This document shows, in pieces, positions 2,011-20,354 of a DNA stretch of 21,798 nt. Made by a program: the position numbers and the translations under genes. The DNA lies in the IMG/VR virus record IMGVR_UViG_3300024518_000708, positions 1-21,798 of that record. One strand, written 5' to 3'. The notes under the pieces are model-generated. The model saw only the letters and a program-made list of their open reading frames with translations. It made no database searches and had not been told where the DNA came from. Position 1 is the first letter of the stretch. Each line of letters begins with the position of its first letter. The stretch comes from a virus.

Positions 2011-4466
2011 TGGCATACAGCCTCGTTCAATCCAAGGAACAGTTCGCGCACAATGGCGTCGCCAACGTCACCATGTGCCTGCCGGTGCGTCCGACGCGTG
2101 ACAACCTGATCGTCTCAACCCTCGCCGTCGATAAGAGCGCCGGCACGATCGCCACCCCCACAGGCTACACGATGGTGCAGCAATTCATCAGCGGGGCTGT
2201 CAGCACCGCCCAGGCGTACAAGATCGTCACAGACGACGAGGGCGCGGTCAGGTGGGTGATGGGGAACGCCAAGATGACGGGCTGCAACGTGGCCGAGTTC
2301 TCTGGCTGCGAACACACTGGCACCCTGGACACCAGCGTCGAGGCCAACTCAACCGGAGCGGACACCACGCTCACCATTGGGCCGACTGCCACCCTCAGCC
2401 AGACAGATAACCTCGTGATCGTAACCGCTGCTTGTGATACTCACGGCGGCTGGTTCGATAACCACACGGTCACGGGGCCGACAGAGTACGGCATCTCGAT
2501 CGACACCGTTCCCTCGGGAGAGCCGGGGCACTACAACGGACACGAGCGCGTCACGGCGACCACGGCGCTCTCTCAGGTCTTGACCACCACTGGGGGCGGC
2601 GACGAGATCGCGGGCTCCCTGGCGGTGTACAAGGAGAGCGGGGCCGACTTCATGGTGCAGGAGAAGTTCCGCTTCTTCGACGACGACGGGGCCCTGCCCA
2701 CGCTGACGGACGGCACTGTCCCAGTCATCGAGACCGCGGACATCACGGAGACCGCGAGCGACAGCGGCTCGACCAGCATCACGGCCTCGGTGCCAGATTA
2801 CGTGGCGGGCGACCTGATCATCGGGCTCCACGCCAACGACGATGACGACACGCCGTCAATGCCGGGCGCAGGCTGCAACGGTGAGACCATACACTACCTG
2901 CCCAGCGGCGACACCCTGTACGAAGCCGGGGGCATCTTCTCGTCCTCGGGGCCAGCGGTAGCCGGTCACTGGTTCATCGGCGACAGCACGCAGACCACGA
3001 ACACTCTGACGCATGAGATCGCCGCTGCCGAGGGGTACGTCATCCACTACATCAAGGTGCTGGCTGGTGAGTTCGATCCCGCCAACCCGATCCCCTCGAC
3101 CGGCTTCGACGGCGGCGTCAGTTCGGCAGAGCTGCCCACGCCGGCCTGGACGCACACACGAGGGCGAGCGAACGCCAGGGTGGTCACGTTCTCCTCGGTG
3201 GACACGGACCCCATCATCGGCGCGGCCACGGGCTGGACGATCAGGGAGGAGACGGACATCGGCTCAGCGTGTGGCGGCGTCATCACCAGAGACGCTGCTG
3301 CGACCGCTGGGGAAGCCATAGCGAGCGTTGACCACAACATCAGCTCCGACACATCCCAGACGATCGGCTTCACTGTGAGCGCTCCCACGACGCTCGCAGG
3401 GGCTACAGCGCTGGGCTCAGTCGATGTCGAGCCGGCGACGTTCGAGGTGGACACCAATTACTTCTGCGTCATCCGTGTCGTCAATCGCGGCGGGGCAGTC
3501 GGACCCTCGACCTTCAAGTGGCAGTTCAATCTGAACAGCGGCGGCTGGACGGATGTCGCTGCCTCGGGTACGGCGGTCATCTGGAGTACCTCGACCAACT
3601 TCGCGAACGGTGCTGATGTCGAGGAGACGATGCTCGACGCGAACCGGCCATACGCCACGGGAGACGCGCTTGAGGCTGGGAAGACCCATACCCTCGCGGC
3701 GGCTCTGCCGGCGCGGACAGCCACGGAACTCTGCCTCTGCTTCCAGTGCCCAGCTGCCCAAGTGGCCAACGGGGACAGCATCCAACTCCGCGTGATCGAG
3801 GACGGCGGCACGGTCTTCGACACGTACACGGTCGATCCGACCATCATCGTCAACGAAGCAGCGGGCGCGCACAGCTCGTCCAGTGGTGCCATCCAGGTAT
3901 CAGCTGTTACCATCGCAGGGACAGGAAGTCATGATCAAGAGGGCACTAGCGCGGCTATTCAGGTTCCGCCTACGACCATTGCCGGCACGGGCGACCACCA
4001 CCATGAGGGCACCTCGGCTGCTATCCAAGTACCCCTTGTCTCGATCGCAGGCACTGGCTCTCAGGACCAAGAGGGCACGTCGGCGGCGATCCAAGTTTCA
4101 CTCGTAACACTAGCTGGCACAGGGAGCCACGACCATGAAGGATCATCATCTGCTATTGCCGTCGCTAAGATCACGATTGCGGGAGAAGGCACACACGGCA
4201 CAGGACACGAAGGAACTAGCGGGGCTATCCAAGTCCCCCTCTACACCGTCGCAGGGACCGGTTCCGCTGACCACGAAGCAACATCTGGCGCTATACGGGT
4301 ACCAGCGGTCACTATCGGGCCGGACGGCACAAGCCAAGTTGCTGCGCTAGGGCTCGATCCAGGGCTCGTCACTAACCTAATCAACGACCTGATGTACGAC
4401 CTGATGACCGACATAGAGCGGTCGGGCACAGGCGACTATATACCGGGGAGAGCGGAACATGAGTAA
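2010..4466 (+). CDS. Large multidomain tail fibre/spike-like protein with C-terminal repeats, 818 aa
   Basis: The start is the ATG at 2010 in a TGATG overlap; the in-frame ATG at 1971 lies inside the previous gene. Residues 1-208 and about 240-458 look like two copies of one beta-sandwich plan. Each has a 'DNLIV' or 'GDLII' strand, then a Gly/Pro-rich loop, an aromatic strand, and an 'AEFSG' or 'KVLAGEFD' strand. Residues 475-612 form a third, Ig-like region. Residues 621-770 hold about seven tandem 22-residue repeats (consensus AIQVPxVTIAGTGSHDHEGTSx). A short tail follows with a possible amphipathic helix (NLINDLMYDLM). Size, composition and position suggest a receptor-binding or surface-contact virion protein. 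No enzymatic motif is seen. The last 8 nt overlap the terminase start. Confidence 0.8.
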   Translation: MAYSLVQSKEQFAHNGVANVTMCLPVRPTRDNLIVSTLAVDKSAGTIATPTGYTMVQQFISGAVSTAQAYKIVTDDEGAVRWVMGNAKMTGCNVAEFSGCEHTGTLDTSVEANSTGADTTLTIGPTATLSQTDNLVIVTAACDTHGGWFDNHTVTGPTEYGISIDTVPSGEPGHYNGHERVTATTALSQVLTTTGGGDEIAGSLAVYKESGADFMVQEKFRFFDDDGALPTLTDGTVPVIETADITETASDSGSTSITASVPDYVAGDLIIGLHANDDDDTPSMPGAGCNGETIHYLPSGDTLYEAGGIFSSSGPAVAGHWFIGDSTQTTNTLTHEIAAAEGYVIHYIKVLAGEFDPANPIPSTGFDGGVSSAELPTPAWTHTRGRANARVVTFSSVDTDPIIGAATGWTIREETDIGSACGGVITRDAAATAGEAIASVDHNISSDTSQTIGFTVSAPTTLAGATALGSVDVEPATFEVDTNYFCVIRVVNRGGAVGPSTFKWQFNLNSGGWTDVAASGTAVIWSTSTNFANGADVEETMLDANRPYATGDALEAGKTHTLAAALPARTATELCLCFQCPAAQVANGDSIQLRVIEDGGTVFDTYTVDPTIIVNEAAGAHSSSSGAIQVSAVTIAGTGSHDQEGTSAAIQVPPTTIAGTGDHHHEGTSAAIQVPLVSIAGTGSQDQEGTSAAIQVSLVTLAGTGSHDHEGSSSAIAVAKITIAGEGTHGTGHEGTSGAIQVPLYTVAGTGSADHEATSGAIRVPAVTIGPDGTSQVAALGLDPGLVTNLINDLMYDLMTDIERSGTGDYIPGRAEHE
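3888..4349 (+). repeat. Tandem 66-bp coding repeat (22-aa unit, about 7 copies)
   Basis: Copies begin with the codons for AI(Q/A/R)V at 3888, 3954, 4020, 4086, 4152, 4224 and 4290. Five spacings are exactly 66 bp. The fifth unit is 72 bp because of a two-residue insertion (GTHGTGHEG). The last copy is degenerate. The repeat is strong in the protein but weak in the DNA, since synonymous codons differ between copies. The region also uses many A- or T-ending codons (CTA, GTA, ACA, GGA, TCA), unlike the flanking C/G-ending style. Confidence 0.9.
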
Positions 4467-6039
4467 AGAAGCTGCCGACGTAATCCTGGCGAGGGAGCTT
4501 GGGCTCTACTACGCCGATCCATTGGGGTACACGATGTTCGCGTTCCCGTGGGACACCGACGCCGACCTCCAGCAGGTTCTGCTCGCGCCTCAGTATCGCG
4601 AGCGGTTCGGCTGCGACTACGGTCCCGACGTGTGGTCCTGCGAGTTCCTCGACGACCTCGGCGGCGAAGTGAAGCTCCGAGGGTTCGACGGCAAGAACGC
4701 CGTTGATCCGATCCAGTACAGCACGGCCAGCGGTCACGGGATCGGGAAGTCAACTCTGGTCGCATGGATCATCAAATGGATTATGGACACGAGACCATTT
4801 GCGCAAGGAACTGTTACTGCAAACACAGCGGAGCAGCTTCGTACGAAGACCTGGGCAGAGCTGGGGAAGTGGCACAGGCGCTCTGTTACTTCCCACTGGT
4901 TCGACTACACTTCGGGCAGAGGCGCGATGGCCTTGAGGCACAAGATCCACAAAGAGGAGTGGTACTGCTCAGCCCAGACATGTCGCGAGGAGAACAGTGA
5001 AGCCTTCGCCGGCCAGCACGCGGCGAACTCCACCTCGTTCTACGTCTTCGACGAGGCATCAGCTGTTCCCAACAAGATCTTCGAAGTCCGAGAGGGCGGC
5101 ACCACGGATGGGGAGCCGATGACATTCGACTTCGGCAACCCCACTCGTAACAGTGGCAAGTTCTACGACAACACGGTCGGCAAGATGCGCCATCGTTACA
5201 AGGTCCGCAAGATCGACAGCCGCGACGTGGCCATCACCAACAAGCAGCGCATCGACGCGTGGATCGAGGATTACGGGATCGACAGCGACTTCGTGAAGGT
5301 CCGTGTCCTCGGCGAGTTCCCCAGCCAGGGTAACACCCAGTTCATCTCGGGTGAGGCCGTGGAAGCAGCCATGGAACGTGAGCTGCATCCCATGGCGTCG
5401 AAGGGTTTCCCCCGCGTCCTCGGCGTGGACGTGGCGCGCTTCGGCGACGACGACAGCGTGATCTACAGCCGGAAGGGACCGGACGCTCGATCGTTCGAGC
5501 CCGACGTGTTCAACGGTCTCGACACCGTGCAGCTCACCCAGAAGGTCATCGCCAAGTTCCAGTTCTTCGACAGCATCGGGGATCGCCCGGTGATGATCTT
5601 CGTCGATGGCGGCGGCATTGGTGGTGGTGTAGTCGATCAGTTGCGCCACCTCGGGTACCCCGTGATGGAGGTCCACTTCGGCGGAAAGCCTAGCGATGGC
5701 GACACCTACCGGTACAAGGCCGACGAGATGTGGGGCGACCTGAAGGCCGACCTCGACAGCGTGTGCCTGCCCGACCGGTTTACCAAATATGGGCTGCGCC
5801 TACATGAGGACTTGACAGCCAGGGAGTTTGGGTATACACTTACTGGTCAGAAGATAAACTTGGAAAGCAAGACGGACATGAAGGCGCGCGGCATCGCGTC
5901 ACCCGACATGGCCGATGGTCTCGTTCTCACTTACGCGATGGGCGTGATCGCACTGAACCAGCTACAGGGGAACGAGTTCGTGAACCTGGGCACAACCCAC
6001 GCGGTGGATGACTACGATCCGCACGCAGACATCAGATAG
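4459..6039 (+). CDS. Terminase large subunit (TerL)
   Basis: TerL is the ATP-driven motor and nuclease that cuts phage DNA and pumps it into the prohead through the portal. This 526-residue protein has a Walker A-type motif SGHGIGKST at residues 91-99 (Lys97) and a Walker B segment YVFDEA at 195-200 with Asp198 and catalytic Glu199. The C-terminal RNase H-like nuclease shows GVDVARFGDD (Asp324), FVDGGG (Asp383) and SPDMADG (Asp483/Asp486). The start ATG is preceded by GGGGAGAG and overlaps the previous gene by 8 nt. No gene clearly resembling a small terminase lies upstream in the window. Near the 3' end the coding sequence holds a sigma70-like promoter candidate. Confidence 0.97.
   Translation: MSKEAADVILARELGLYYADPLGYTMFAFPWDTDADLQQVLLAPQYRERFGCDYGPDVWSCEFLDDLGGEVKLRGFDGKNAVDPIQYSTASGHGIGKSTLVAWIIKWIMDTRPFAQGTVTANTAEQLRTKTWAELGKWHRRSVTSHWFDYTSGRGAMALRHKIHKEEWYCSAQTCREENSEAFAGQHAANSTSFYVFDEASAVPNKIFEVREGGTTDGEPMTFDFGNPTRNSGKFYDNTVGKMRHRYKVRKIDSRDVAITNKQRIDAWIEDYGIDSDFVKVRVLGEFPSQGNTQFISGEAVEAAMERELHPMASKGFPRVLGVDVARFGDDDSVIYSRKGPDARSFEPDVFNGLDTVQLTQKVIAKFQFFDSIGDRPVMIFVDGGGIGGGVVDQLRHLGYPVMEVHFGGKPSDGDTYRYKADEMWGDLKADLDSVCLPDRFTKYGLRLHEDLTAREFGYTLTGQKINLESKTDMKARGIASPDMADGLVLTYAMGVIALNQLQGNEFVNLGTTHAVDDYDPHADIR
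5812..5840 (+). promoter_or_regulatory. Candidate sigma70-like promoter inside terL
   Basis: TTGACA (5812-5817), a 17-nt spacer, then TACACT (5835-5840) as the -10 (4/6 match). The surrounding codons switch to A/T-rich choices compared with the rest of terL, which fits selection for a DNA signal. It lies about 210 nt upstream of the MCxGG gene cluster. The same -10 and spacer length recur at 8813-8841. A match this good could arise by chance about once in a window of this length. Confidence 0.45.
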
Positions 6040-6051
6040 GAGACCACCAGT

Positions 6052-6270
6052 ATGTGCGGAGGAGCCCCTTCCCCACCACCGCCCCCGCCCCCGCCCGAGC
6101 CTTTGCCCCCGGCACCCCAGCCGGTGGATAGCGCCACAGCGGAGAAACGGGCCAGGAGTAAGCGCACGGCTGCGACCGCCCGTGGGCTGACTGCCAAGCG
6201 TTCGACGACCCCTCTCGGGTTGACGGATGACAATCTTAACTCGACCAAGAAGACGGCGTTGGGAGTGTAA
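6052..6270 (+). CDS. MCxGG microprotein 1, Pro-rich, 72 aa
   Basis: This is the first of four consecutive short genes whose products start Met-Cys. AGGAG at 6038-6042, overlapping the terL stop, sits 9 nt before the ATG. The protein begins MCGGAPSP, then has a run of eight or so prolines (residues 8-15) and a basic middle (residues 32-50). It carries a TPLG motif at 53-56 and TALG at 68-71, ending in ...TALGV. No membrane segment is seen. From memory, short Gly/Pro-rich proteins with a terminal 'LLG'-like motif occur near the portal genes of several podophages, with no known function. A head or portal accessory role is inferred from location. The last codons also provide the ribosome-binding site of the next gene. 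Confidence 0.8.
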   Translation: MCGGAPSPPPPPPPPEPLPPAPQPVDSATAEKRARSKRTAATARGLTAKRSTTPLGLTDDNLNSTKKTALGV

Positions 6271-6272
6271 CC

Positions 6273-6455
6273 ATGTGTCTCGGAGGAGGTGGATCATCAC
6301 CAGCGCCTCAGCCTCTACCGGACCCCAACGTCCAGAGGGCTGAAGGCGATGACCCGGAGACGAACCGGATCAAGGATCGGAACAAAGAGGACAAGCGCAC
6401 TGCCCTCGGTCTGGTCGCGAAAGAGCCCGAGACCCCGCTAGGGAGGATCGAGTAA
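6273..6455 (+). CDS. MCxGG microprotein 2, 60 aa
   Basis: This is a paralog of its neighbours. The first 13 residues (MCLGGGGSSPAPQ) are identical to those of the next gene, yet only 3 of the 13 codons (including ATG) are the same. The middle is highly charged (residues 23-42). TALG occurs at 43-46 and TPLG at 54-57, and the protein ends PLGRIE. GGGAG at 6261-6265, inside the end of the previous gene, lies 7 nt before the ATG. The stop overlaps the next start (TAATG). Function unknown. Codon-independent conservation of the N-terminal peptide shows it is a real, selected protein. Confidence 0.85.
   Translation: MCLGGGGSSPAPQPLPDPNVQRAEGDDPETNRIKDRNKEDKRTALGLVAKEPETPLGRIE
6441..6446 (+). promoter_or_regulatory. 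Ribosome-binding site embedded in the C-terminal PLGRI codons
   Basis: GGGAGG, in the Gly-Arg codons of microprotein 2, lies 8 nt before the ATG at 6455. The equivalent AGGGAAG at 6652-6658 in microprotein 3 lies 8 nt before the ATG at 6667. The conserved C-terminal peptide therefore doubles as the Shine-Dalgarno of the next gene. Confidence 0.65.
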
Positions 6456-6667
6456 TGTGCTTAGGTGGAGGGGGCTCAAGCCCCGCACCCCAACAGCAGA
6501 AGCCCCCATTTCCCAAGGAGCTGTCCGACGAACAGAAGTCGGTCGGCAAGGAGATGGGGCGCAAGGCCAATGAAAACTCTGAGCGTCGCCGGCAACAGAC
6601 TGCCCTCGGCGTGCAGGACAACCAGTTCACGGATAGCTCCGGGACACCGCTAGGGAAGATCAAGTAA
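6455..6667 (+). CDS. MCxGG microprotein 3, 70 aa
   Basis: It starts in a TAATG overlap. Residues 1-13 are identical to microprotein 2. A Pro/Gln stretch follows, then a charged, probably helical segment (residues 22-46) rich in Lys, Glu and Arg. TALG is at 49-52 and TPLG at 64-67, and the protein ends PLGKIK. A GC-rich inverted repeat (GGGGCTCAAGCCCC, 6471-6484) falls in the Gly/Ser/Pro codons; it has no T-tract and probably only reflects composition. Function is unknown. Like its siblings it sits between terminase and portal, so a minor virion or assembly-factor role is the simplest guess. Confidence 0.85.
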   Translation: MCLGGGGSSPAPQQQKPPFPKELSDEQKSVGKEMGRKANENSERRRQQTALGVQDNQFTDSSGTPLGKIK

Positions 6668-6891
6668 TGTGCATCGGCTCATCCAACGGGCTGGGACGCG
6701 TCGTGAACCCGAACTCCTTCATCGCGGAGAAGACGGGCATCAAGGCGTTATCCCCCGAGACGGTGGCCGCGCGCAAGATCGGCGGCGGTGCCGGCGACAT
6801 CATCGCACCTCAGCGCCTGTTCATGAAGAACAAGGGGCAGAAGGCCAGCCAGTCCGCTGAGCTGGGTGACACAAAAGGGATTAACAACTGA
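6667..6891 (+). CDS. Met-Cys microprotein 4, divergent, 74 aa
   Basis: It starts in a TAATG overlap, with AGGGAAG 8 nt upstream inside the previous gene. It begins MCIGSSNGLG, so it shares the Met-Cys-x-Gly start with the three genes before it, but it lacks the Pro-rich part and the TPLG motif. The remainder has an Ala/Ile/Gly-rich segment (ARKIGGGAGDIIAPQRLFM, about residues 35-53) and a polar tail. It is either a diverged paralog or an unrelated protein sharing only the N-terminal Cys. Its TGA overlaps the portal ATG. Function unknown. Confidence 0.75.
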   Translation: MCIGSSNGLGRVVNPNSFIAEKTGIKALSPETVAARKIGGGAGDIIAPQRLFMKNKGQKASQSAELGDTKGINN

Positions 6892-8561
6892 TGCCCCTCG
6901 TAGGAACCCTTCGGGAACGCCAAGAGAAGCGGCGCGGGTCGATGGTAACGGAGCGCACTTCGTTCATCGGTCACTACCGCGAACTCTCTGACTTCATTCA
7001 ACCACGCACCGGTCGGTACTTCGTCGACGATGTGAACAAAGGCGACAAGCGGTGGAACTCCATCATCAACTCCCGCGCTACCCAAGCGCTGCGGGTCGCT
7101 ACCGCTGGGCTGTTCAATGGTGTCATGTCCCCATCCCGCCCGTGGTTTCAACTGGGTTCGCCCGACACGGATTTAAACGACTTTGGTCCGGTGAAGCAGT
7201 GGTTGACACAGGTCGAGGAGCTGATGCGTCGGATCTTCAACGGCGGCAACATCTACAACATGTCGCCTGTGATGCTACGCGAGCTGCTATTGTACGGTAC
7301 CGGCTGTCTCTCGCACGTTGACGACTTCGAAGACGTGTCGCGGTTCTACGCCCATACCGTGGGCAGCTACGTCATCGCCCAGAACGATCGCTACATGATC
7401 AACACGGTCGGTCGCGAGTACAAGATGACGGTCGAGCAGATCTACCGGCAGTTCTACAAGACCGGCAAAATCAGCCAGCCCATCCGCGACGCCTACGACA
7501 ACGGCAAGTACGACGCGTGGTTCAAGATCATCCACATGGTGGACGAGAACCCCGAATACATCCGGGGCAATCCCTTCGCCCAGAACAAGAAATATCGGGA
7601 GATGTACTACGACCCGACCGACGTGGACAAGGATCACGTCCTCAAGCAGTCGGGCTATGACGAGTTCCCGTTCTACACCCCCCGCTGGGACGTGACCGGC
7701 GAGGACATCTACGGCACCGACTGTCCCGGCATGACAGCGCTGGGCGACGTGAAAGGGCTTCAGCATGAAGAAAAGCGCAAGGCCCAGGCGATCGACAAGA
7801 TGGTATCGCCGCCCCTGCATGGTCCTCCTTCTCTCCGCAATACTGCTGTGTCTTCTCTGCCGGGCGGTGTTACGACTTACGAGGCGGGTCAGTCACAGGG
7901 GCTCAAACCTATTTACGAGGTACGCCCGCAGATTGGCGAGCTTGTCCAAGACATCCAGGCCATAGAGACACGCATCAACGAGGCGTTCTACGTCGATCTG
8001 TTCAAGGCGATTTCGGACATGGCCGGCGTGCAGCCTCGCAACCAGCTTGAGCTGACGCAGCGGAACGAGGAACGCTTGCTTCAGCTGGGACCAGTCCTGG
8101 AGCGCCTGCATGGCGAGTACCTGGACAAGGTGATTGACCGCCAGTTCGCGCAGATGGTCAGAGCGAAGATGCTACCGGAACCCCCGGAGGAGCTGCGAGA
8201 CAGCCCCCTGAAGGTGACGTACATCTCAACGCTGGCCATGGCGCAACGAGCTGTTCAGACTGGATCGATCGATCGTCTGGTCGGCTTCATTGGCGGGCTC
8301 GCCGCGGCAGGGATGCCCGGCGCAGTACACAAGCTGGACGAGATCCAAGCCGTGGACGAGTACGCCACGTTCCTTGGTGTCCCGCCGACCGTCATCAGGT
8401 CCGACGACGACGTGAAAGCCCGCATGGAAGCGGAAGCCCAGCGAGCCGCACAGGCTGCTCAAATGGAGCAGATGCAGCAGGGTGCGGATATCGCGAAGAC
8501 AGCCGGCGAGGCTGACTTGAACCTACAGGGAGCGGCCACACAAGCGGCTGACAGAGCATGA
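6891..8561 (+). CDS. Portal protein (head-tail connector, T7 gp8 / Bbp20 type)
   Basis: The portal is the dodecameric ring at one capsid vertex through which DNA enters and leaves and to which the tail attaches. This 556-residue product matches the podovirus head-tail connector family. It shows an N-terminal helical region with 'QPRTGRY' (37-43), the 'GLFNGVMSPSRPWFQL' segment (73-88), 'LLYGTGCL' (133-140), and a proline-rich core 'PPLHGPPSLRN' from residue 307. It ends in an Ala/Gln/Glu-rich, coiled-coil-like region (about 505-556). Length is normal for the family. The start at 6891 overlaps the previous TGA, and the 3' end overlaps the next start (ATGA). Codons around 7800-7870 are more T-ending than their surroundings. 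Confidence 0.95.
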   Translation: MPLVGTLRERQEKRRGSMVTERTSFIGHYRELSDFIQPRTGRYFVDDVNKGDKRWNSIINSRATQALRVATAGLFNGVMSPSRPWFQLGSPDTDLNDFGPVKQWLTQVEELMRRIFNGGNIYNMSPVMLRELLLYGTGCLSHVDDFEDVSRFYAHTVGSYVIAQNDRYMINTVGREYKMTVEQIYRQFYKTGKISQPIRDAYDNGKYDAWFKIIHMVDENPEYIRGNPFAQNKKYREMYYDPTDVDKDHVLKQSGYDEFPFYTPRWDVTGEDIYGTDCPGMTALGDVKGLQHEEKRKAQAIDKMVSPPLHGPPSLRNTAVSSLPGGVTTYEAGQSQGLKPIYEVRPQIGELVQDIQAIETRINEAFYVDLFKAISDMAGVQPRNQLELTQRNEERLLQLGPVLERLHGEYLDKVIDRQFAQMVRAKMLPEPPEELRDSPLKVTYISTLAMAQRAVQTGSIDRLVGFIGGLAAAGMPGAVHKLDEIQAVDEYATFLGVPPTVIRSDDDVKARMEAEAQRAAQAAQMEQMQQGADIAKTAGEADLNLQGAATQAADRA

Positions 8562-12704: not shown

Positions 12705-13307
12705 ATGGCGTCCTCAGTTTCCAAAGTCACGATCGGCAACATGGCCTTGGGCCATATCGGTACGGACAACACGATCGAGGCATTCACGGAGACCTCACCC
12801 CAGGCGAAGCAGATCGACCTCTGGTACGACTTCGCGCGGGAGCAGGCTCTGGCTGAGTACGACTGGAACTTCGCACGCAAGCGGCTCGCCATGTCGGTGC
12901 ACGCCGAAGATCCGCCCTCGGGAGTATGGGCGTATCGCTACCAATATCCTTCAGACGCGATTGTCTGCCGTGAGATCGAGAAGGCACCCACGGAGACCGT
13001 GGTCCCCTTCGACATCGAAACCGCTGGCACCGACAACTCGCTGTCCGTCCTCACCGACCGCGCGACCGCGACGATGAAGTACACGCGCGACGTACAGGAC
13101 ACGAACCTGTTCTCCCCTCACTTCGTCCAGGCTCTGGGCTACCTGCTGGCGCACTATGTGGCGTTCGCACTGACCCGGAAGAAGACGGTGAAGGAAGACA
13201 TGATGACTGCGTATCGACAGCTGGTACCCCTAGCCGCAGCGCATAATTTCAACGAGAGCGGAGCAAGTGCCCCGCCCGAAGGTGGAGCCGTCCAGGCCAG
13301 GAGTTAA
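12705..13307 (+). CDS. Tail tubular protein A (T7 gp11-like adaptor)
   Basis: The 200-residue product fits the gp11-like family, which forms a ring below the portal and links it to the tail nozzle. Typical features are 'KVTIGNMALGHIG' (7-19), 'SPQAKQIDLWYDFAREQALAEYDWNFARKR' in shortened view at 31-60, 'YRYQYPSDAIVCREI' (77-91), and a C-terminal helical part 'FVQALGYLLAHYVAFALT'. The length is normal for the family. The start ATG at 12705 is preceded by GGAG just after a strong hairpin. It is followed directly by the nozzle gene, as in T7 (genes 11 and 12). Confidence 0.92.
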   Translation: MASSVSKVTIGNMALGHIGTDNTIEAFTETSPQAKQIDLWYDFAREQALAEYDWNFARKRLAMSVHAEDPPSGVWAYRYQYPSDAIVCREIEKAPTETVVPFDIETAGTDNSLSVLTDRATATMKYTRDVQDTNLFSPHFVQALGYLLAHYVAFALTRKKTVKEDMMTAYRQLVPLAAAHNFNESGASAPPEGGAVQARS

Positions 13308-13308
13308 A

Positions 13309-16300
13309 ATGCCGTCGCTCATTCAGCCTTCGTTCGCGAAGGGCGAGTTCGCTCCCAGCCTCTACGGGCGGGTGGACACGCAAGCCTACTCGTCAGCTCT
13401 GCGCACAGCTCGCAACGTCATCGTGCATCCGTACGGTGGCGTTTCCAATCGTCCAGGCACCGACTTCATCGGACCCTGCAAGAACCACACCGGCACCACC
13501 CGGCTGATCAAGTTCCAGTTCAAGACCACCGACACCTACGTGATCGAGATGGGCGACCTGTATATGCGGTTCATCCGCAACGGTGGCCACGTCCTGGAAG
13601 CCGACAAGACGATCACTGCCATCACCGCCGCCAGCCCCGGCGTCGTCACCAGCGCGAGCCACGGCTACGCAAACGGGGACGAGGTATATTTGGATACGAT
13701 TGTGGGTATGACGGAGCTGAACCAGCGCCGGTTCATCGTCGCCAACAAGACCACCAACACGTTCGATCTGACCACCCAGTTCGACGGCAGCAACGTGGAC
13801 ACCTCGGGCTACACCGCGTACAGCTCAGCCGGCACCGCCGCCAAGGTCTACGAGGTGACGACCACCTACGCCCAGGCCGATCTCGCGGAGCTGAAGTTCA
13901 TTCAGTCAGCTGACACCATCACCTTCACGCACCCCAGCTATCCGGTGCGGGAGCTGACGCGTACGGCGCACACCTCGTGGACGCTCGCCGACGTGAGCTT
14001 CATCCCCACCCAGGTTGAGCCCGACAGCATGACGGTGGCCCAGCAGGGTACGACCGGCAGCACCACCTACAAGTACCGGGTCACGGCCATCGGGGCGAAC
14101 ACGTTCGAGGAGAGCCTCAGCGCATTGAACAACTCGACCTCAACCCCGGAGAGCGCCACGGCTGCGAACCCGGTTGTCGTCACGGATACGTCGCACGGTT
14201 TCGCCAACGGTGAGATCATCAAGATCACGGGCTTCAACGAGATGACCGAGGTCAACAACAGGCGGTTCAAGGTCGCGAACAAGAACGCGAACGACTACGA
14301 GCTGACCGATCCTCATGATGGGACCAACGAAGATGGATCAGGGTATGCGGCAGAGACTACGGGAGGTACTAGCGTTCAATGCCATGTGCAAATCACCAAC
14401 GGCAACGCCACCCTCTCGACCACGAACTACATCGCCATCGCCTGGGGAGCCACAGCTCTCGCTCAGCGATACGCCGTATACCGCGAGACAAACGGCGTTT
14501 ATGGGCTACTGGGAGAGACGGAGGATAACAACTGGGACGATGACGGGGCCATCTCGCCTGACGTGAGCGACAGCCCGCCGCGCTACAACCAGCCCTTCCG
14601 TGCCACGGACGAGTACCCCGGCACCACGGGCTTCTACGAGCAGCGGCAGGTATTCGGTGGAGCCAACGAGAACCCCGACACCACGGCGTATAGCCAGACC
14701 GGTAACTTCAAGAACTTCACCGTCTCGACCCCTGTCAAGGCGGATGATGCGATCACGGCGACCCTGCCCTCCAGCGAGGTCAACGAGATCCGTCACTTCG
14801 TCGCCGGCAACGATCTGCTGGTCCTGACCTCGGGTGGCGAATGGCGAGTGAACGCCGGCACCGAGGGCGGCTTCGAAGCGGCCACCCTGCGGCAGAAGCC
14901 TCAGTCGTATTGGGGCTGCTCGCATATCCCGCCTGTCACGATCGGCGACCAGACCCTGTTCTTCGAGTTCAACAAGACGATCCTTCGGAGCATGGGCTAC
15001 AGCCTGGAGATCGATGGCTACGCCGGCACCGACATGACCATCCTCGCCAACCACCTGTTCGGCGACTACCCTGCCGTGGAAGCGGCCTATGCGCGCCTGC
15101 CTGACCCCGTGATCGCCTGCGTGCGGTCGGACGGTAAGATGCCGGTCCTGACCTTCAACAAGGCACAGGAGGTCATCGGCTGGGCGAACTGGGACACGCT
15201 GGGCAAGTACAAGTCAGTGACCTCGGTCCTACCCTCGATCACCTCGACGGACCAAGCCTTGTACATGGTGGTCGAGCGCTCGATCAACAGCCAGACGATG
15301 CGCTATATCGAGAAGACGCACAGCCGCAGGTTCACCGACGTGCGCGATGCCTACTTCGTCGATGCCGGCGTCACCCAGGACACCCCGATCACGTTGACTG
15401 CCGCGTCAATCGCGAACCCTGTGCAGATCACTGCCGCAGCCCACGGCTTGTCGGACGGTAACGAGATCGACATCTTCGACATCAAGTGGGTCAGCGCCTT
15501 CGACGCCCTCGACAACGAGACCCAGCCGGCGCAGCTCAACAACGGGCGCTTCCTGATCAACGACGTGGCGACGAACACCATGACGCTGGCGAAGCCCAGC
15601 TCGAACATCCACGTCACCGCCATCACCAAGGCGAGCCCGGCAGCTGTGACCGCGGCCACCGCCCATGGTCTGACGACCGGCGACAAAGTGGTCCTGAACA
15701 ACACGGGCGGCATGACGGAGGTGAACAACATCACCTTCACGATCACCGTCACCAGCACCACGGAGTTCACCCTCGGCGTGGACAGCTCGGCCTACACCAC
15801 CTACACCTCGGGCGGCAAGGTCCATGCCACGATCGACGGCAGCGCCTTCGTGGCGTACGTCAGCGACGGCGAGCTCTACAAGACCGTGACGGAGATCGGT
15901 GGGCTGTGGCACCTGGAGGGCGAGAACGTCGCAGTCCTGGCAGACGGTAACGTCATCTCAGGTCACACGGTGTCGAGCGGCAAGATCACCCTCACCACCG
16001 CAGCCAGCCGCGCCCACATAGGGCTCAAGTATATCGCGGACGTTGAGACCCTGAACATCGAGGCACCGCAGGGTACCGTCCAGGACAAGAAGAAGCAGAT
16101 CCCCGAGGTCACGATCCGGTTCGAGAAGACCCGTGGCATCCTCGTGGGCCCGTCCACCGCCCTGCTCAGTGAGATGAAGCAGCGCGAGGACGAAGCGTAC
16201 GGTGAGCCCACCGCATTGCTGACCGGGGACAAGGCGATCCCGCTGGAGCCCAGCTGGAACTCGCACGGTCGCGTGTTCATACGCCAACGGAACCCACTGC

Positions 16301-16350
16301 CCATGACGATCCTGGCAGTGATCCCAACCGTGGAGATCGGGGATGACTAA
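13309..16350 (+). CDS. Tail tubular protein B / tail nozzle (T7 gp12-like), 1013 aa
   Basis: The ATG at 13309 follows AGGAG and the previous TAA; an in-frame ATG at 13267 lies inside the previous gene. The N-terminus carries the family signature: 'QPSFAKGEFAPSLYGRVDTQ', then 'ARNVIVHPYGGVSNRPGTDF'. Gp12-like proteins form the tip of the short tail. Four FCCH-like beta modules are inserted at about residues 102-183, 283-357, 694-769 and 770-844. Each has an 'ITAITAASP.VVT...HGxxxGD' opening, a 'GMTELN' turn and a final 'YTxYTSGG'. A conserved core with 'WANWDT' lies between them. The protein is longer than T7 gp12 (about 790 residues), which the insertions could explain. The end overlaps the next gene by 8 nt. 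Confidence 0.93.
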   Translation: MPSLIQPSFAKGEFAPSLYGRVDTQAYSSALRTARNVIVHPYGGVSNRPGTDFIGPCKNHTGTTRLIKFQFKTTDTYVIEMGDLYMRFIRNGGHVLEADKTITAITAASPGVVTSASHGYANGDEVYLDTIVGMTELNQRRFIVANKTTNTFDLTTQFDGSNVDTSGYTAYSSAGTAAKVYEVTTTYAQADLAELKFIQSADTITFTHPSYPVRELTRTAHTSWTLADVSFIPTQVEPDSMTVAQQGTTGSTTYKYRVTAIGANTFEESLSALNNSTSTPESATAANPVVVTDTSHGFANGEIIKITGFNEMTEVNNRRFKVANKNANDYELTDPHDGTNEDGSGYAAETTGGTSVQCHVQITNGNATLSTTNYIAIAWGATALAQRYAVYRETNGVYGLLGETEDNNWDDDGAISPDVSDSPPRYNQPFRATDEYPGTTGFYEQRQVFGGANENPDTTAYSQTGNFKNFTVSTPVKADDAITATLPSSEVNEIRHFVAGNDLLVLTSGGEWRVNAGTEGGFEAATLRQKPQSYWGCSHIPPVTIGDQTLFFEFNKTILRSMGYSLEIDGYAGTDMTILANHLFGDYPAVEAAYARLPDPVIACVRSDGKMPVLTFNKAQEVIGWANWDTLGKYKSVTSVLPSITSTDQALYMVVERSINSQTMRYIEKTHSRRFTDVRDAYFVDAGVTQDTPITLTAASIANPVQITAAAHGLSDGNEIDIFDIKWVSAFDALDNETQPAQLNNGRFLINDVATNTMTLAKPSSNIHVTAITKASPAAVTAATAHGLTTGDKVVLNNTGGMTEVNNITFTITVTSTTEFTLGVDSSAYTTYTSGGKVHATIDGSAFVAYVSDGELYKTVTEIGGLWHLEGENVAVLADGNVISGHTVSSGKITLTTAASRAHIGLKYIADVETLNIEAPQGTVQDKKKQIPEVTIRFEKTRGILVGPSTALLSEMKQREDEAYGEPTALLTGDKAIPLEPSWNSHGRVFIRQRNPLPMTILAVIPTVEIGDD

Positions 16351-16816
16351 GTACCTGCACCGGCCCAGCGTCGAGGAAGATTGCGCCCTCCTGGCACCCA
16401 GGATGAAGAAGGCAGACGTGGACGAGCTATGGGCTTTCGCCCGTATGCGACCAGTCCAGGCACTCAAGCACAGCCTCATGTACTCGCACGAGAGCTTCAC
16501 CGTCGAGGTTGACGGTCAGGTCGAGATGATGTATGGTATTGGACAGCCTTCGTTGCTGTCTCTCAACGCGATCCCTTGGATGCTTTCCTCGGACGCGGTG
16601 TATGACCCGGAGCATCGCCGTCACTTCCTGAAGGGGAGCGCTGAGTGGTTGGAGCTGATGAAGTTCATGTACCCGCGCATGGTCAACTTCGTGGATGGCC
16701 GCGCCAAGAAGACGATCGTCTGGTTGAAACGACTGGGGTTCACCATTGATGAACCGGAGCTGATGGGCAGGGACGAGATACCGTTCCATCGGTTCCACAT
16801 AGGATTGGAAAGCTAA
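16343..16816 (+). CDS. gp13-like internal virion/assembly protein (acetyltransferase-like fold)
   Basis: The 157-residue product resembles the T7 gp13 family, needed for assembly of the internal core and noted for a GNAT-like fold. Recognisable parts are 'ADVDELWAF' (24-32), 'SFTVEVDGQVEMMYGIG' (51-67, the typical beta hairpin), 'IPWMLSSDAV' (77-86) and 'NFVDGRAKKTIVWLKRLGFTID' in shortened form at 115-136. The last segment is the usual GNAT-like end (helix plus 'WLkxLGF'). Whether it binds acetyl-CoA is unclear; a clear RxxGxG/A loop is not visible. It is the first gene of the ejection-protein block and overlaps the nozzle gene by 8 nt and the next gene by TAATG. Confidence 0.88.
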   Translation: MTKYLHRPSVEEDCALLAPRMKKADVDELWAFARMRPVQALKHSLMYSHESFTVEVDGQVEMMYGIGQPSLLSLNAIPWMLSSDAVYDPEHRRHFLKGSAEWLELMKFMYPRMVNFVDGRAKKTIVWLKRLGFTIDEPELMGRDEIPFHRFHIGLES

Positions 16817-17664
16817 TGTGTCCTGTCACAGGTACTGCTGCCGCCGTAGGCACCGTCGCAGCTACCTCCGCTGCCTCTGCCGCTGCCGCTAGTGCTGCCG
16901 CCGCTGCTGCCGCTGCTACGACCGCTGCTGCCGCTGCCACGGCTACCGCTGCTGCTGCCGCTGCCTCGGCGACTGCCGGCCTATCTGCCGCTGCTGTCAC
17001 CTCAGCTGCTGCCGGCGTGGGTATGTTCGGCGGCATGGCGGCAACTGGTGTCTCAGCTGTCTCTGGCTTGACCGCTGTTGGTGCCTCGATGGTCGGTGGC
17101 ACCGCCGCCTCGACGGGTATCATCGCCGGCATGAGCGGGTTCCAGCTCGCCAGCCTCGGCATGAGCGCCATGTCCGGTATCATGGGTATGATGGGTCAGC
17201 GACAGCAGGGTCGAGCGGCCCAGGCGCGGGCCACGTATCAGGCTGCGGTCGATCGTAACAACGCGATCCGCTCCAATCAGAAGGCTGCTCGGGCTCGTAC
17301 CATCGGTGAGAGCCAGCGTGTCGCGAGGCTCCTGGGGGCTACTCAGGACGCTGGCCGGATCAACGTGGGTCTCGCTGCCAACGGCGTCGTCGTCAACGCT
17401 GGCACCGCCCTGGCGCTCAAGTCAGACGCCCTCGACGCCGGCTTCCAGGACGCCAGGATGATCGCCCACAACGCCGAGGTGGACGCGCTGTCCTACGAGG
17501 CAGACGCGGGCAACCACCAAGCGCAGGCTCGTCTCACCACCATGCGCGGAGCTGCCGATAATCAGGCCGGCAAGCGCGCTGCTTTCTCCACGGCACTGTC
17601 CACAGCTGGGCGAGTGTCCAACCAATGGTACGGTTTCGATCGTGCCAATCAGGGACTAGCCTAA
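16816..17664 (+). CDS. gp14-like internal virion protein with Ala-rich N-terminus
   Basis: The 282-residue protein occupies the T7 gene 14 position and, like T7 gp14, begins Met-Cys. Residues 6-66 are almost entirely Ala with Thr and Ser, including runs of 6-10 alanines. Residues 67-127 are Gly/Met/Ala-rich and hydrophobic (GMFGGMAATG, SGIMGMMG), likely membrane-inserting. Residues 128-282 are polar, helical and Ala/Arg/Gln-rich. In T7, gp14 is ejected first and forms a channel in the outer membrane. The same role is inferred here. The alanine run is encoded by mixed GCT/GCC/GCA/GCG codons, giving a trinucleotide-like tract at about 16855-16990. Overlaps: TAATG on both sides. Confidence 0.85.
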   Translation: MCPVTGTAAAVGTVAATSAASAAAASAAAAAAAATTAAAAATATAAAAAASATAGLSAAAVTSAAAGVGMFGGMAATGVSAVSGLTAVGASMVGGTAASTGIIAGMSGFQLASLGMSAMSGIMGMMGQRQQGRAAQARATYQAAVDRNNAIRSNQKAARARTIGESQRVARLLGATQDAGRINVGLAANGVVVNAGTALALKSDALDAGFQDARMIAHNAEVDALSYEADAGNHQAQARLTTMRGAADNQAGKRAAFSTALSTAGRVSNQWYGFDRANQGLA

Positions 17665-20354
17665 TGGTACAGCGGATCAGCACCCAGACCCACGGCGCTG
17701 CCGTCAATCGCGGCATCACTGCCAAGCAAGATCCTCGGAAGGATCAGACGCTCGACAGCACCGGGACGCACGGAGAGCAGGCTGCGCAGAGCTTGATCGA
17801 CGGCGGCAAGGCTGCGAAGGACATGTCGGATCAGCTCGCTGTGCGAGCTCGTCAGGACGCCCTGGACGATAGCCAGCGCGAGCTGGATCAGGCTGAGCTG
17901 ACGTACAGCCAGCAGGTTCGTGAGCTGAACGACGCCTTCTACGAGACCAAGGGCGAGAACACCTTGATCGCACGCACCGCGCACGAGGAAGCCTTGGCTG
18001 GTGTCCGCGCCGCCCTGACTGGGACCGGCAGCTCTGACGCTATGAAGGAGCGCATTGGCCTACGGCTTGAGCAGACAGAGAACAGTCACCGCACCCGCGT
18101 CGATCAGTATGTTCGGCAGCAGCGCGAGACCGCCAACGACGACAGTGACGCAGCTGCCATCGACCGCTCCACCCAGGACGGCATCGGACTGTACAACGAT
18201 CCGGTGCAGACCCAGCAGAGCCATGACGAGATCGAGGCACGCATCCGGGAGAAGGCGGCACGGAAGGGCTGGAACGAAGACAAGATCAAGACCGAGACCG
18301 ACAAGCACCGGGACGCCATGTACCTCGGCATGATCAAGCGGGCTCGCATCGACGGGAACCCGGCCACAGCCAATAAGGTCTACAACGCCAACCGCCACAA
18401 CATGACGCCCCAGGCGCGCACCACGGCGCAAGCGGAGCTGAAGGAAGTCGGGCTCGACCAGGAAGCAGCTGACGCCGTGAAGGCGACCCAGGACTGGCTC
18501 GACGAGGATACCTCGCGCACCCCGGAGCAGGGCCGCAAGATGCTGCGCGAGCAGTTCTCCGATCGCGTCGCCGTCATGGATCGTGTCACCAAGCGGTGGG
18601 ATGCCGAACAGAAGAACAAGCGGGACGTGAAGGCTGAGGCAGTGCGCCCCCTGGTCGAGAAGGCCATGGGCGATCTGATGGCGAAGCACACGAAGAAGGA
18701 TGGGACCACCGACTACAAGGCCATGTACGAGGAAGCCAAGAAGCACGGCAACCCGTTCGTGAAGCCCTACCTGCGAGCCGAGATCGACAAGCAGCTCAAC
18801 CGGGACTACAAGAGCGAGACCCACGCCAAGCGCCGGCAGGCCGACAAAGACGCGGAGATGGCGCTACGGTTCGCCCAGACCGCTATCGAGCTGGCCCAGA
18901 AGAAGGCGGATCGAGAGGGTCACGGGATCGCCTCGGAAGAAGACGTGGTGGCGAACATCACCTCGGGCTTGACCCCGGAGAGGGCAGGCGCTGCCATCGC
19001 CGAGGCACGGAAGCTCCTCGCCGGCAAGCGTCGGGATCGTGGCGACCAGCGTCAGATCGGGACCGACAAGCACAACGCCGACGTACGCGCCCGCGCCACC
19101 GAGGACAACGAAGCCAAGGACATGGCGCTGTCGTTCATGGATGAGCAGATCAAGCACGCCGACAGGTTCAACCCTGCCGCTGGGCTCACCGCCATGCTCA
19201 ACGCGATCGAGAAGTCGGAGAAGCTGTCGCTCCTCGGGAAGTTCCACGCCACCATCCAGGCACGCAACCACTTCAAAGAGACGGTGCGATTGAACAAGCA
19301 GGCGACCAGCGAGAAGGCGCGGTTTGAGATCATGGTCGGTAAGACGCGTGGCCTCAAGGGTGAGGCGCTGCGGTCGTTCCTCAGCGATATCTCGAACGAC
19401 GAGGTTCGGGAGGAAGCTGTCCGCAGGTACGACGTGATGCAGACCAGCATCAAGAAAGCCAACGACGAAGCCAACGCCGCTGCTTGGGCTGGCGCTCGCG
19501 AGGCTGTGGAGTTCAAGGCGATAGACCCCCGCACCTATGCGGAGCAACTGCGCAAGGACGACAAGCACGAGGAAGCAGACAGGCTCGCGGCGAAGATGCC
19601 GGAACTCCGCAGGCGCTACGCCGAAGTGGTCGCCGGCAGGATCTATGCCCCCGCGTCGGACGGCACCACGAAATCCACGTACGCCACGATGACCCCTGCG
19701 GCACTCGCCAGGGCAGACATCAACGAGAACCGCGGCAAGATGACGGAAGCCGAATACAACCGCGTCCTGGAGTGGCAGCGTGGAGCTGCCGCGTCCATCT
19801 CCGCATCCGAGAAGGATCAGCCTGCCTTCAACGCCGGCATCGCGGCAGTCAAGCAGATGTTCCCGACGCGGCGACGCAAGGGTAAGCTCATTCACGAGCT
19901 GACGAAGGAGCGTCAGCAGATCGTGTTCAATCACATGAACGCATGGACGGCGGCGCAGCTGGCAAAGGGCGAAGGAAAGATCGATCCAGCCGCGCGTGCG
20001 AAAGAGGCTCGTCGGGCACTGTTAGAGATCACGTACGATCCGCCCTTCGCCTTCAACGAAGTCACGCAGACGATCGCCGAGTTCGAACAAGCAGGCATCG
20101 TTATCAATGAGCTGGCGGATCAGCAGATCTCAGGCCAGCCGCCCCAGAAGAACCGCATCAAGATGACGGACCACACGAAGTTCGAGGCACTCTATCCAGA
20201 GCGCGCCAAGAACTTCCAAATCGTAGCGAAAGCGAACAAGGTCGAATGGGACGACAAGACCCGCGATCAGGTTTATATTGCATTTGCGATGGGCAACGAG
20301 AAGGAGCTGCGCAGGTTGCTCCGTGTCCCAGCGCGTAAAAGGGAAACCAAGTAA
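17664..20354 (+). CDS. gp15-like internal virion (ejection) protein, 896 aa
   Basis: The start is the ATG at 17664 in a TAATG overlap; the in-frame ATG at 17625 lies inside the gp14-like gene. The product is almost wholly helical and very charged, with many Glu/Lys/Arg/Ala/Gln heptad-like stretches (for example residues 50-90, 300-420, 560-640). No membrane segment is seen. Size (T7 gp15 is about 750 residues), composition and order support a gp15-like ejection protein that forms the periplasmic tube with the gp16-like protein. Sequence similarity to T7 gp15 itself is not obvious by eye, so the assignment rests mainly on position and architecture. The stop overlaps the next ATG (TAATG). Confidence 0.82.
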   Translation: MVQRISTQTHGAAVNRGITAKQDPRKDQTLDSTGTHGEQAAQSLIDGGKAAKDMSDQLAVRARQDALDDSQRELDQAELTYSQQVRELNDAFYETKGENTLIARTAHEEALAGVRAALTGTGSSDAMKERIGLRLEQTENSHRTRVDQYVRQQRETANDDSDAAAIDRSTQDGIGLYNDPVQTQQSHDEIEARIREKAARKGWNEDKIKTETDKHRDAMYLGMIKRARIDGNPATANKVYNANRHNMTPQARTTAQAELKEVGLDQEAADAVKATQDWLDEDTSRTPEQGRKMLREQFSDRVAVMDRVTKRWDAEQKNKRDVKAEAVRPLVEKAMGDLMAKHTKKDGTTDYKAMYEEAKKHGNPFVKPYLRAEIDKQLNRDYKSETHAKRRQADKDAEMALRFAQTAIELAQKKADREGHGIASEEDVVANITSGLTPERAGAAIAEARKLLAGKRRDRGDQRQIGTDKHNADVRARATEDNEAKDMALSFMDEQIKHADRFNPAAGLTAMLNAIEKSEKLSLLGKFHATIQARNHFKETVRLNKQATSEKARFEIMVGKTRGLKGEALRSFLSDISNDEVREEAVRRYDVMQTSIKKANDEANAAAWAGAREAVEFKAIDPRTYAEQLRKDDKHEEADRLAAKMPELRRRYAEVVAGRIYAPASDGTTKSTYATMTPAALARADINENRGKMTEAEYNRVLEWQRGAAASISASEKDQPAFNAGIAAVKQMFPTRRRKGKLIHELTKERQQIVFNHMNAWTAAQLAKGEGKIDPAARAKEARRALLEITYDPPFAFNEVTQTIAEFEQAGIVINELADQQISGQPPQKNRIKMTDHTKFEALYPERAKNFQIVAKANKVEWDDKTRDQVYIAFAMGNEKELRRLLRVPARKRETK

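Follow-up and report, generated by a model that had tools for sequence, protein, structure and literature searches.

A Tandem Set of Met-Cys Microproteins Upstream of a Podophage Portal Gene: Putative gp6.7-Like, Portal-Docking Virion Proteins

Introduction

In the virion of phage T7, residues 2-15 of the small protein gp6.7 are found by cryo-EM on the portal barrel, and after being ejected, gp6.7 and gp14 reassemble into an outer-membrane channel (PMC11784390). A gp6.7 orthologue was also detected in the virion of a T7-like phage by mass spectrometry, with 80% peptide coverage (PMC4517105). T7 gp6.7 (DUF5476; PDB 9jyy, 9jyz and 9jz0) starts with MCFSPKIKTP, and its gene precedes the portal gene with three others (7, 7.3 and 7.7) intervening. 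A second solved gp6.7 relative with an MCFSPK start is chain S of PDB 9vvp ("Gp17," 74 aa), for which no paper was found in our literature search.

Another kind of small portal-side protein is represented by phrog_831, a function-unknown family whose named members include epsilon15 gp3 (AAO06066.1, single copy) and NVP1021A_04 of Vibrio phage 1.021. No structure of a phrog_831 protein was found in the PDB, where searches with phrog_831 relatives gave chance matches only, and no mass spectrometry of any phrog_831 protein was found.

The window analyzed here is a 21.8-kb viral contig (21,798 nt). Its head-tail module is of the epsilon15/BPP-1 type, and four small genes, all starting with Met-Cys (MC), lie between the large terminase and portal genes. 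By analogy with T7, we consider it moderately probable that they encode minor virion proteins of the gp6.7-like/epsilon15 gp3 type, which would dock on the portal and be ejected as linkers, with an N-terminal dock in common with gp14 and different tails. This portal-docking reading is supported by gene content, family relations, the confinement of the MC start to two gene classes, the lone Cys2 and the co-variation of residue 2.

Gene Organization of the Window

The features of the locus are listed in Table 1. All four small genes (60-74 aa) possess the Met-Cys-x-Gly start that had been noticed before, and because Cys accounts for only 0.6% of the window codons, four consecutive Met-Cys starts are not attributable to chance. 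Stops and starts overlap in gene pairs 2/3 (TAATG), 3/4 (TAATG) and 4/portal (TGATG). Downstream of the portal gene are a T7-gp13-like gene, a gp14-type gene and a gene for a large protein. Among the 21 genes scanned in the window, five start with MC: the four microprotein genes and the gp14-type gene, in whose product Cys2 is the only Cys.

Table 1. Terminase-portal interval and gp14-type gene of the window.
Feature	Coordinates	Strand	Evidence
Large terminase, upstream neighbor of the microproteins	4459..6039	+	phrog_2 terminase large subunit, E=5e-35
MC microprotein 1, 72 aa, MCGG start	6052..6270	+	phrog_831, E=2e-6; phrog_13568, E=0.0017
MC microprotein 2, 60 aa, MCLG start	6273..6455	+	Divergent paralogue of gene 1; relatives' profile, 22.6 bits
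MC microprotein 3, 70 aa, MCLG start	6455..6667	+	Divergent paralogue; relatives' profile, 19.9 bits
MC microprotein 4, 74 aa, MCIG start	6667..6891	+	BLASTP E=1e-9 (single comparison) to L022:2744-3001
Portal/head-to-tail connector, proposed docking surface	6891..8561	+	PF12236, E=1.5e-138; phrog_332; solved relative 8ck0_A, E=7e-126
gp14-type internal virion protein, 282 aa, MCPV start	16816..17664	+	phrog_418 internal virion protein, E=9e-11

Two other large proteins are encoded in the window. The one at 13267-16350, in the tail region, contains three E1_FCCH domain stretches (Pfam PF16190, E=2e-29). The other, of 909 aa (17625-20354), has a single Cys (residue 7) only when read from the first ATG; from the ATG at codon 14 (MVQRIS), which may be the real start, it would be Cys-free.

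Kinship of the Four Microproteins

Genes 2 and 3 are identical over residues 1-13, where they have the same codon only at ATG1, GGA5 and TCA8, as first described. Two of 12 codons match, compared with 4.3 expected from random draws from the window codon usage (P(<=2)=0.12), and pS over codons 2-13 is 0.96; synonymous change between the two genes is thus saturated. Local alignments of the tails alone also exceed shuffled sequences, the fraction of shuffles reaching the score being 0 for genes 1 and 2, 0.0016 for genes 1 and 3, and 0.0068 for genes 2 and 3 beyond residue 13, which makes duplication likelier than convergence on a Gly/Ser/Pro-rich start. Saturated synonymous sites and aligned tails therefore support the old duplication that the original prediction had placed behind genes 2 and 3. 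Its notion of a four-gene family holds for genes 1-3, which are mutual relatives, and fails for gene 4, which has only the MC-x-G start in common with them. Gene 4, which contains a GDIIxPxRL block, had no match in the related-locus search; the only relative found is the second MC gene of locus L022, with which it is assigned by sequence to a separate MC family.

Gene 1, which consists of the MC start, a Pro-rich stretch, a basic middle and a C-terminal TPLG...TALG, is a member of phrog_831 by profile. Gene 2 has no PHROG or Pfam match of its own, gene 3 has no PHROG match by hmmscan, and no relatives of either were found by tblastn against phage records. Both are linked to phrog_831 by a profile built from relatives only, with the window sequences left out, which gene 1 matches with 51.9 bits and genes 2 and 3 with the scores in Table 1, none of them reached by any of 1000 shuffles per gene in which MC was kept. 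Gene 4 is not linked to phrog_831. The C-terminal ends of genes 1-3 (TALGV, TPLGRIE and TPLGKIK, respectively) may correspond to the phrog_831 C-terminal motif STIxT...KTxLG; the last 34 residues alone are not clearly above shuffles (58/1000 for gene 2 and 23/1000 for gene 3). Gene 4 is without T-x-L-G.

Relatives in the Terminase-Portal Interval

The family was surveyed in 80 IMG/VR loci around the nearest portals, and a short protein between terminase and portal is found in many of those with a readable interval. Its consensus is MCxxxPxxPxPPPPPP...DxAVxxARxxxRxRAxxAxGRxSTIxTxxxGxxxxAxTxxKTLLGx, and 37 of the 39 aligned rows match phrog_831. That single-copy relatives occupy this site in podophages, as had been noted without names, is confirmed by epsilon15 gp3 and others. 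Like these proteins, the window genes lie between the large terminase and a PF12236 portal and share with the family the MC start, the Pro-rich N-terminal half, the basic middle and, in genes 1-3, possibly the C-terminal T-x-L-G. Whereas phrog_831 genes usually occur singly, three divergent copies and a fourth MC gene are present in the window, where genes 2 and 3 have a Gly-rich start and fall below PHROG detection. Two-gene MC sets occur in four phrog_831-type loci (L022, L036, L047 and L055). Small portal-side proteins of this kind are known but uncharacterized, and the four-gene set is one variant of them.

The window genes, epsilon15 gp3, NVP1021A_04 and PSSP7_023 of P-SSP7 are found in the same genomic place, which is near that of T7 gp6.7. 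This fixed place by the portal, seen in two podophage groups that are far apart, argues against the very improbable reading that they are accessory non-virion proteins, such as host-takeover peptides, varying freely within the head operon. Their short length, variability and one to four copies would fit such a role, as would the unrelated genes (e.g., an acetyltransferase) that the interval also carries in other phages; the start in common with gp14 and the presence of a gp6.7-type protein in virions (PMC4517105) do not.

Comparison with T7 gp6.7 and gp7.3

Similar to the window proteins, T7 gp6.7 is short, encoded upstream of the portal gene and starts with MC, its only Cys being residue 2; the gp14 of T7 has an MC start as well. 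T7 gp6.7 differs in that it is present in one copy, three genes off a T7-type portal that is distant in sequence. The window proteins have no significant sequence match to T7 gp6.7 and no PHROG or PDB link to it. The link between phrog_831 and T7 gp6.7 is based on position, start and composition; a profile comparison (A1-A3) gave 97%, but over Pro-rich columns, which inflate scores. With T7 gp6.7 as precedent (PMC11784390), the role of minor head or portal component that had been suggested for the microproteins is supported by analogy.

T7 gp7.3 (phrog_1320) is likewise a small, basic and minor virion component encoded just upstream of the portal gene, but it starts with MG, has no Cys and belongs to an unlinked sequence family; the window proteins have no phrog_1320 match. 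In the virion, its C-terminus is fixed between subunits of the nozzle (PMC11784390), and many marine T7-like single-copy MC proteins end with SLRI...GGLN, like the T7 gp7.3 C-terminus. The microproteins could accordingly be assembly factors of the gp7.3 kind whose C-terminal motif helps to attach the tail nozzle to the adaptor, the MC start being incidental. We regard this as improbable, as the window tails end in TPLG/TALG or, in gene 4, lack this ending, the MG start and lack of Cys in gp7.3 do not fit, and the MC start in common with gp14 would be left unexplained.

Tandem Sets in Marine T7-Like Phages

The related-locus search with genes 2 and 3 returned one locus, L087, which is marine and T7-like and in which three tandem MC genes precede a portal of the T7 type. 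Among 80 marine T7-like loci, an ORF scan, a few of whose hits may be spurious, showed that 79 have one or more MC ORFs immediately before the portal, with two in 23 loci and three in 21. The cultured cyanophage NATL1A-7 has three annotated MC genes (CYIG_00014 to 00016), while P-SSP7 and Pelagibacter phage HTVC019P have one portal-side MC gene each. Hence the expanded set, which the original prediction took to be unusual, is not so. As in the window, the marine three-gene sets (NATL1A-7, L087, L089 and others) consist of tandem MC genes up to the portal, with MCLGGGG starts and the only Cys at residue 2; they differ from it in their tails, T7-type portal and lack of the T-x-L-G ending. P-SSP7's portal-side protein gave chance matches only against the PDB.

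Window gene 2 and L087:253-540 have the start MCLGGGGS(S/A)PAP in common, although their portals are far apart, which may reflect either exchange between groups or convergence. The earlier idea of a frozen 13-residue peptide is not borne out, since in close marine relatives amino-acid change over codons 2-13 is no slower than in the rest of the gene. This rate comparison rules out a frozen block as a general rule; the residue that is kept is Cys2.

The Met-Cys Start Is Confined to Two Gene Classes

Of 212 annotated CDS in T7, epsilon15, Vibrio phage 1.021 and P-SSP7, only eight start with MC, and in each genome these are the portal-side microprotein and the gp14-type protein; the same two are the only MC genes of HTVC019P. 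In phiKMV, SP6 and BPP-1, the MC start is found in neither class (SP6 has one other MC gene), and it is found in none of the 69 genes of P22, which has other ejection proteins. Over the nine genomes, 10/16 genes of the two classes start with MC vs 1/474 of the others (P=4e-16). Since both TGT and TGC are used for Cys2 and GTG starts occur, selection acts on the amino acid, and an RNA-level reason for ATG-TGY is ruled out. GTG-TGY starts, with Cys2 kept, were seen in gp14-type genes of marine T7-like phages (L172:25955, L226, L227 and L228). The MC start common to portal-side microproteins and gp14 suggests a shared docking or thiol role in DNA delivery. That BPP-1, SP6 and phiKMV manage without MC in either protein argues against the gp6.7-like reading. 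The portal-side and gp14-type proteins of BPP-1 (bbp22, L175:22762-23169, and bbp12, L175:14510-15205) share another start (MSGAVTAVAVGA / MSGATSAVALGA), as if keeping matching N-termini.

A Lone Cysteine that Co-Varies with That of gp14-Type Proteins

No MC protein counted has a Cys other than Cys2, in about 20,000 residues of microproteins and gp14-type proteins together. For the microproteins, the count is zero in 11,317 aa of 138 distinct marine proteins, in 2,777 aa of alignment A1 and in 1,743 aa of alignment A3. At the Cys content of the portals of the same marine loci (0.42%), about 48 would be predicted in the marine set. Twenty-three gp14-type proteins also have no other Cys in 4,380 aa, and Cys is entirely absent from the nine counted that lack the MC start. 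These counts show that microproteins and gp14-type proteins avoid Cys but retain a single one right at the N-terminus. A portal-microprotein disulfide is not supported, as none of the portal Cys columns tracks the MC start. The literature searched contained no papers on the cysteines of ejection proteins, and as far as it shows, a lone N-terminal Cys common to two ejection-protein families is undescribed.

Residue 2 was compared between microproteins and gp14-type proteins in 45 genomes, with gp14-type genes taken from the contigs of related loci and further named phages, and some starts chosen by ribosome-binding site. Both residues are Cys in 27 genomes, neither is in 13 (several S/S or G/G), and five are discordant, one in one direction (L010) and four in the other (HU1, L078, L080 and L056); the Fisher P of 4e-7 ignores descent and includes near-duplicates. 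Mapped on the portal tree, the traits show eight and six changes, and of the independent pairs, about three of four agree, with none opposing (p=0.25). The co-variation is thus suggestive and not tree-proof. Because few gp14-type genes were recovered from marine contigs with phrog_805 and phrog_15746, it is based on few genomes among T7-like phages.

The large ejection proteins are Cys-free in T7, SP6, phiKMV, P-SSP7, Vibrio phage 1.021, HTVC019P and P22, and nearly so in epsilon15 and BPP-1; examples are T7 gp15/16, SP6 36/37, phiKMV 36/37 and P22 gp7/16/20 (L169, L173, L174 and L177). A stronger form of the portal-docking reading, not its opposite, is that ejection proteins are Cys-free to suit an oxidizing periplasm, where Cys2 of the microproteins and gp14 would form disulfides that lock the outer-membrane channel. 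Lone, co-varying Cys2 residues and Cys-free partners would fit this idea, as would the joint channel of T7 gp14 and gp6.7 (PMC11784390) and the description of the periplasm as oxidizing (PMC8954989). We nevertheless consider such a latch unlikely, given that no disulfide is reported in the literature searched, that in the T7 model after DNA ejection neither gp14 (before residue 25) nor gp6.7 (before residue 11) has a resolved N-terminus, that several lineages are without both cysteines and that a non-covalent dock would yield the same co-variation.

Proposed Working of the Microproteins

Removal of the initiator Met is the established rule for proteins with a small second residue. Based on the portal-docking reading, we propose that each microprotein is made just before the portal and that its Met is removed, exposing an N-terminal Cys, which is consistent with the modeled stretch of T7 gp6.7 that begins at Cys2. 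The first 12 or so residues (Cys, a hydrophobic residue, Gly/Ser and then Ser/Gly/Pro) would dock outside the portal barrel beside the gp14-type protein, and a flexible Pro-rich/basic linker would lead to the C-terminal T-x-L-G, which may hold a second component of the core or tail. Upon infection, the microproteins would leave the head early with gp14 and become part of the envelope channel. As the paralogues have the dock in common and differ in their tails, one portal ring could carry several kinds of linkers. We infer from analogy the carry-over of the T7 gp6.7 role to the window phage, the action of Cys2 and the job of T-x-L-G. Cys2 could either be thiol-active, forming a disulfide in the oxidizing periplasm, or fit a pocket.

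More tentatively, and with less than even probability, podophage ejection machines may have been selected to be Cys-free except for one N-terminal Cys on gp14 and the microprotein(s), gained and lost together, which would serve a thiol-dependent latch or modification in the virion or during envelope passage, with some phages multiplying the microprotein. In a 2026 study of phage Peru-2, gp6.7 and gp7.3 orthologues were not recognizable (PMC13320782). A Met-Cys start with no other Cys is a short flag for gp6.7- and gp14-type genes where similarity fails, and it makes the role of the lone N-terminal Cys of T7 gp6.7 and gp14 in head assembly or in the envelope channel a testable question.
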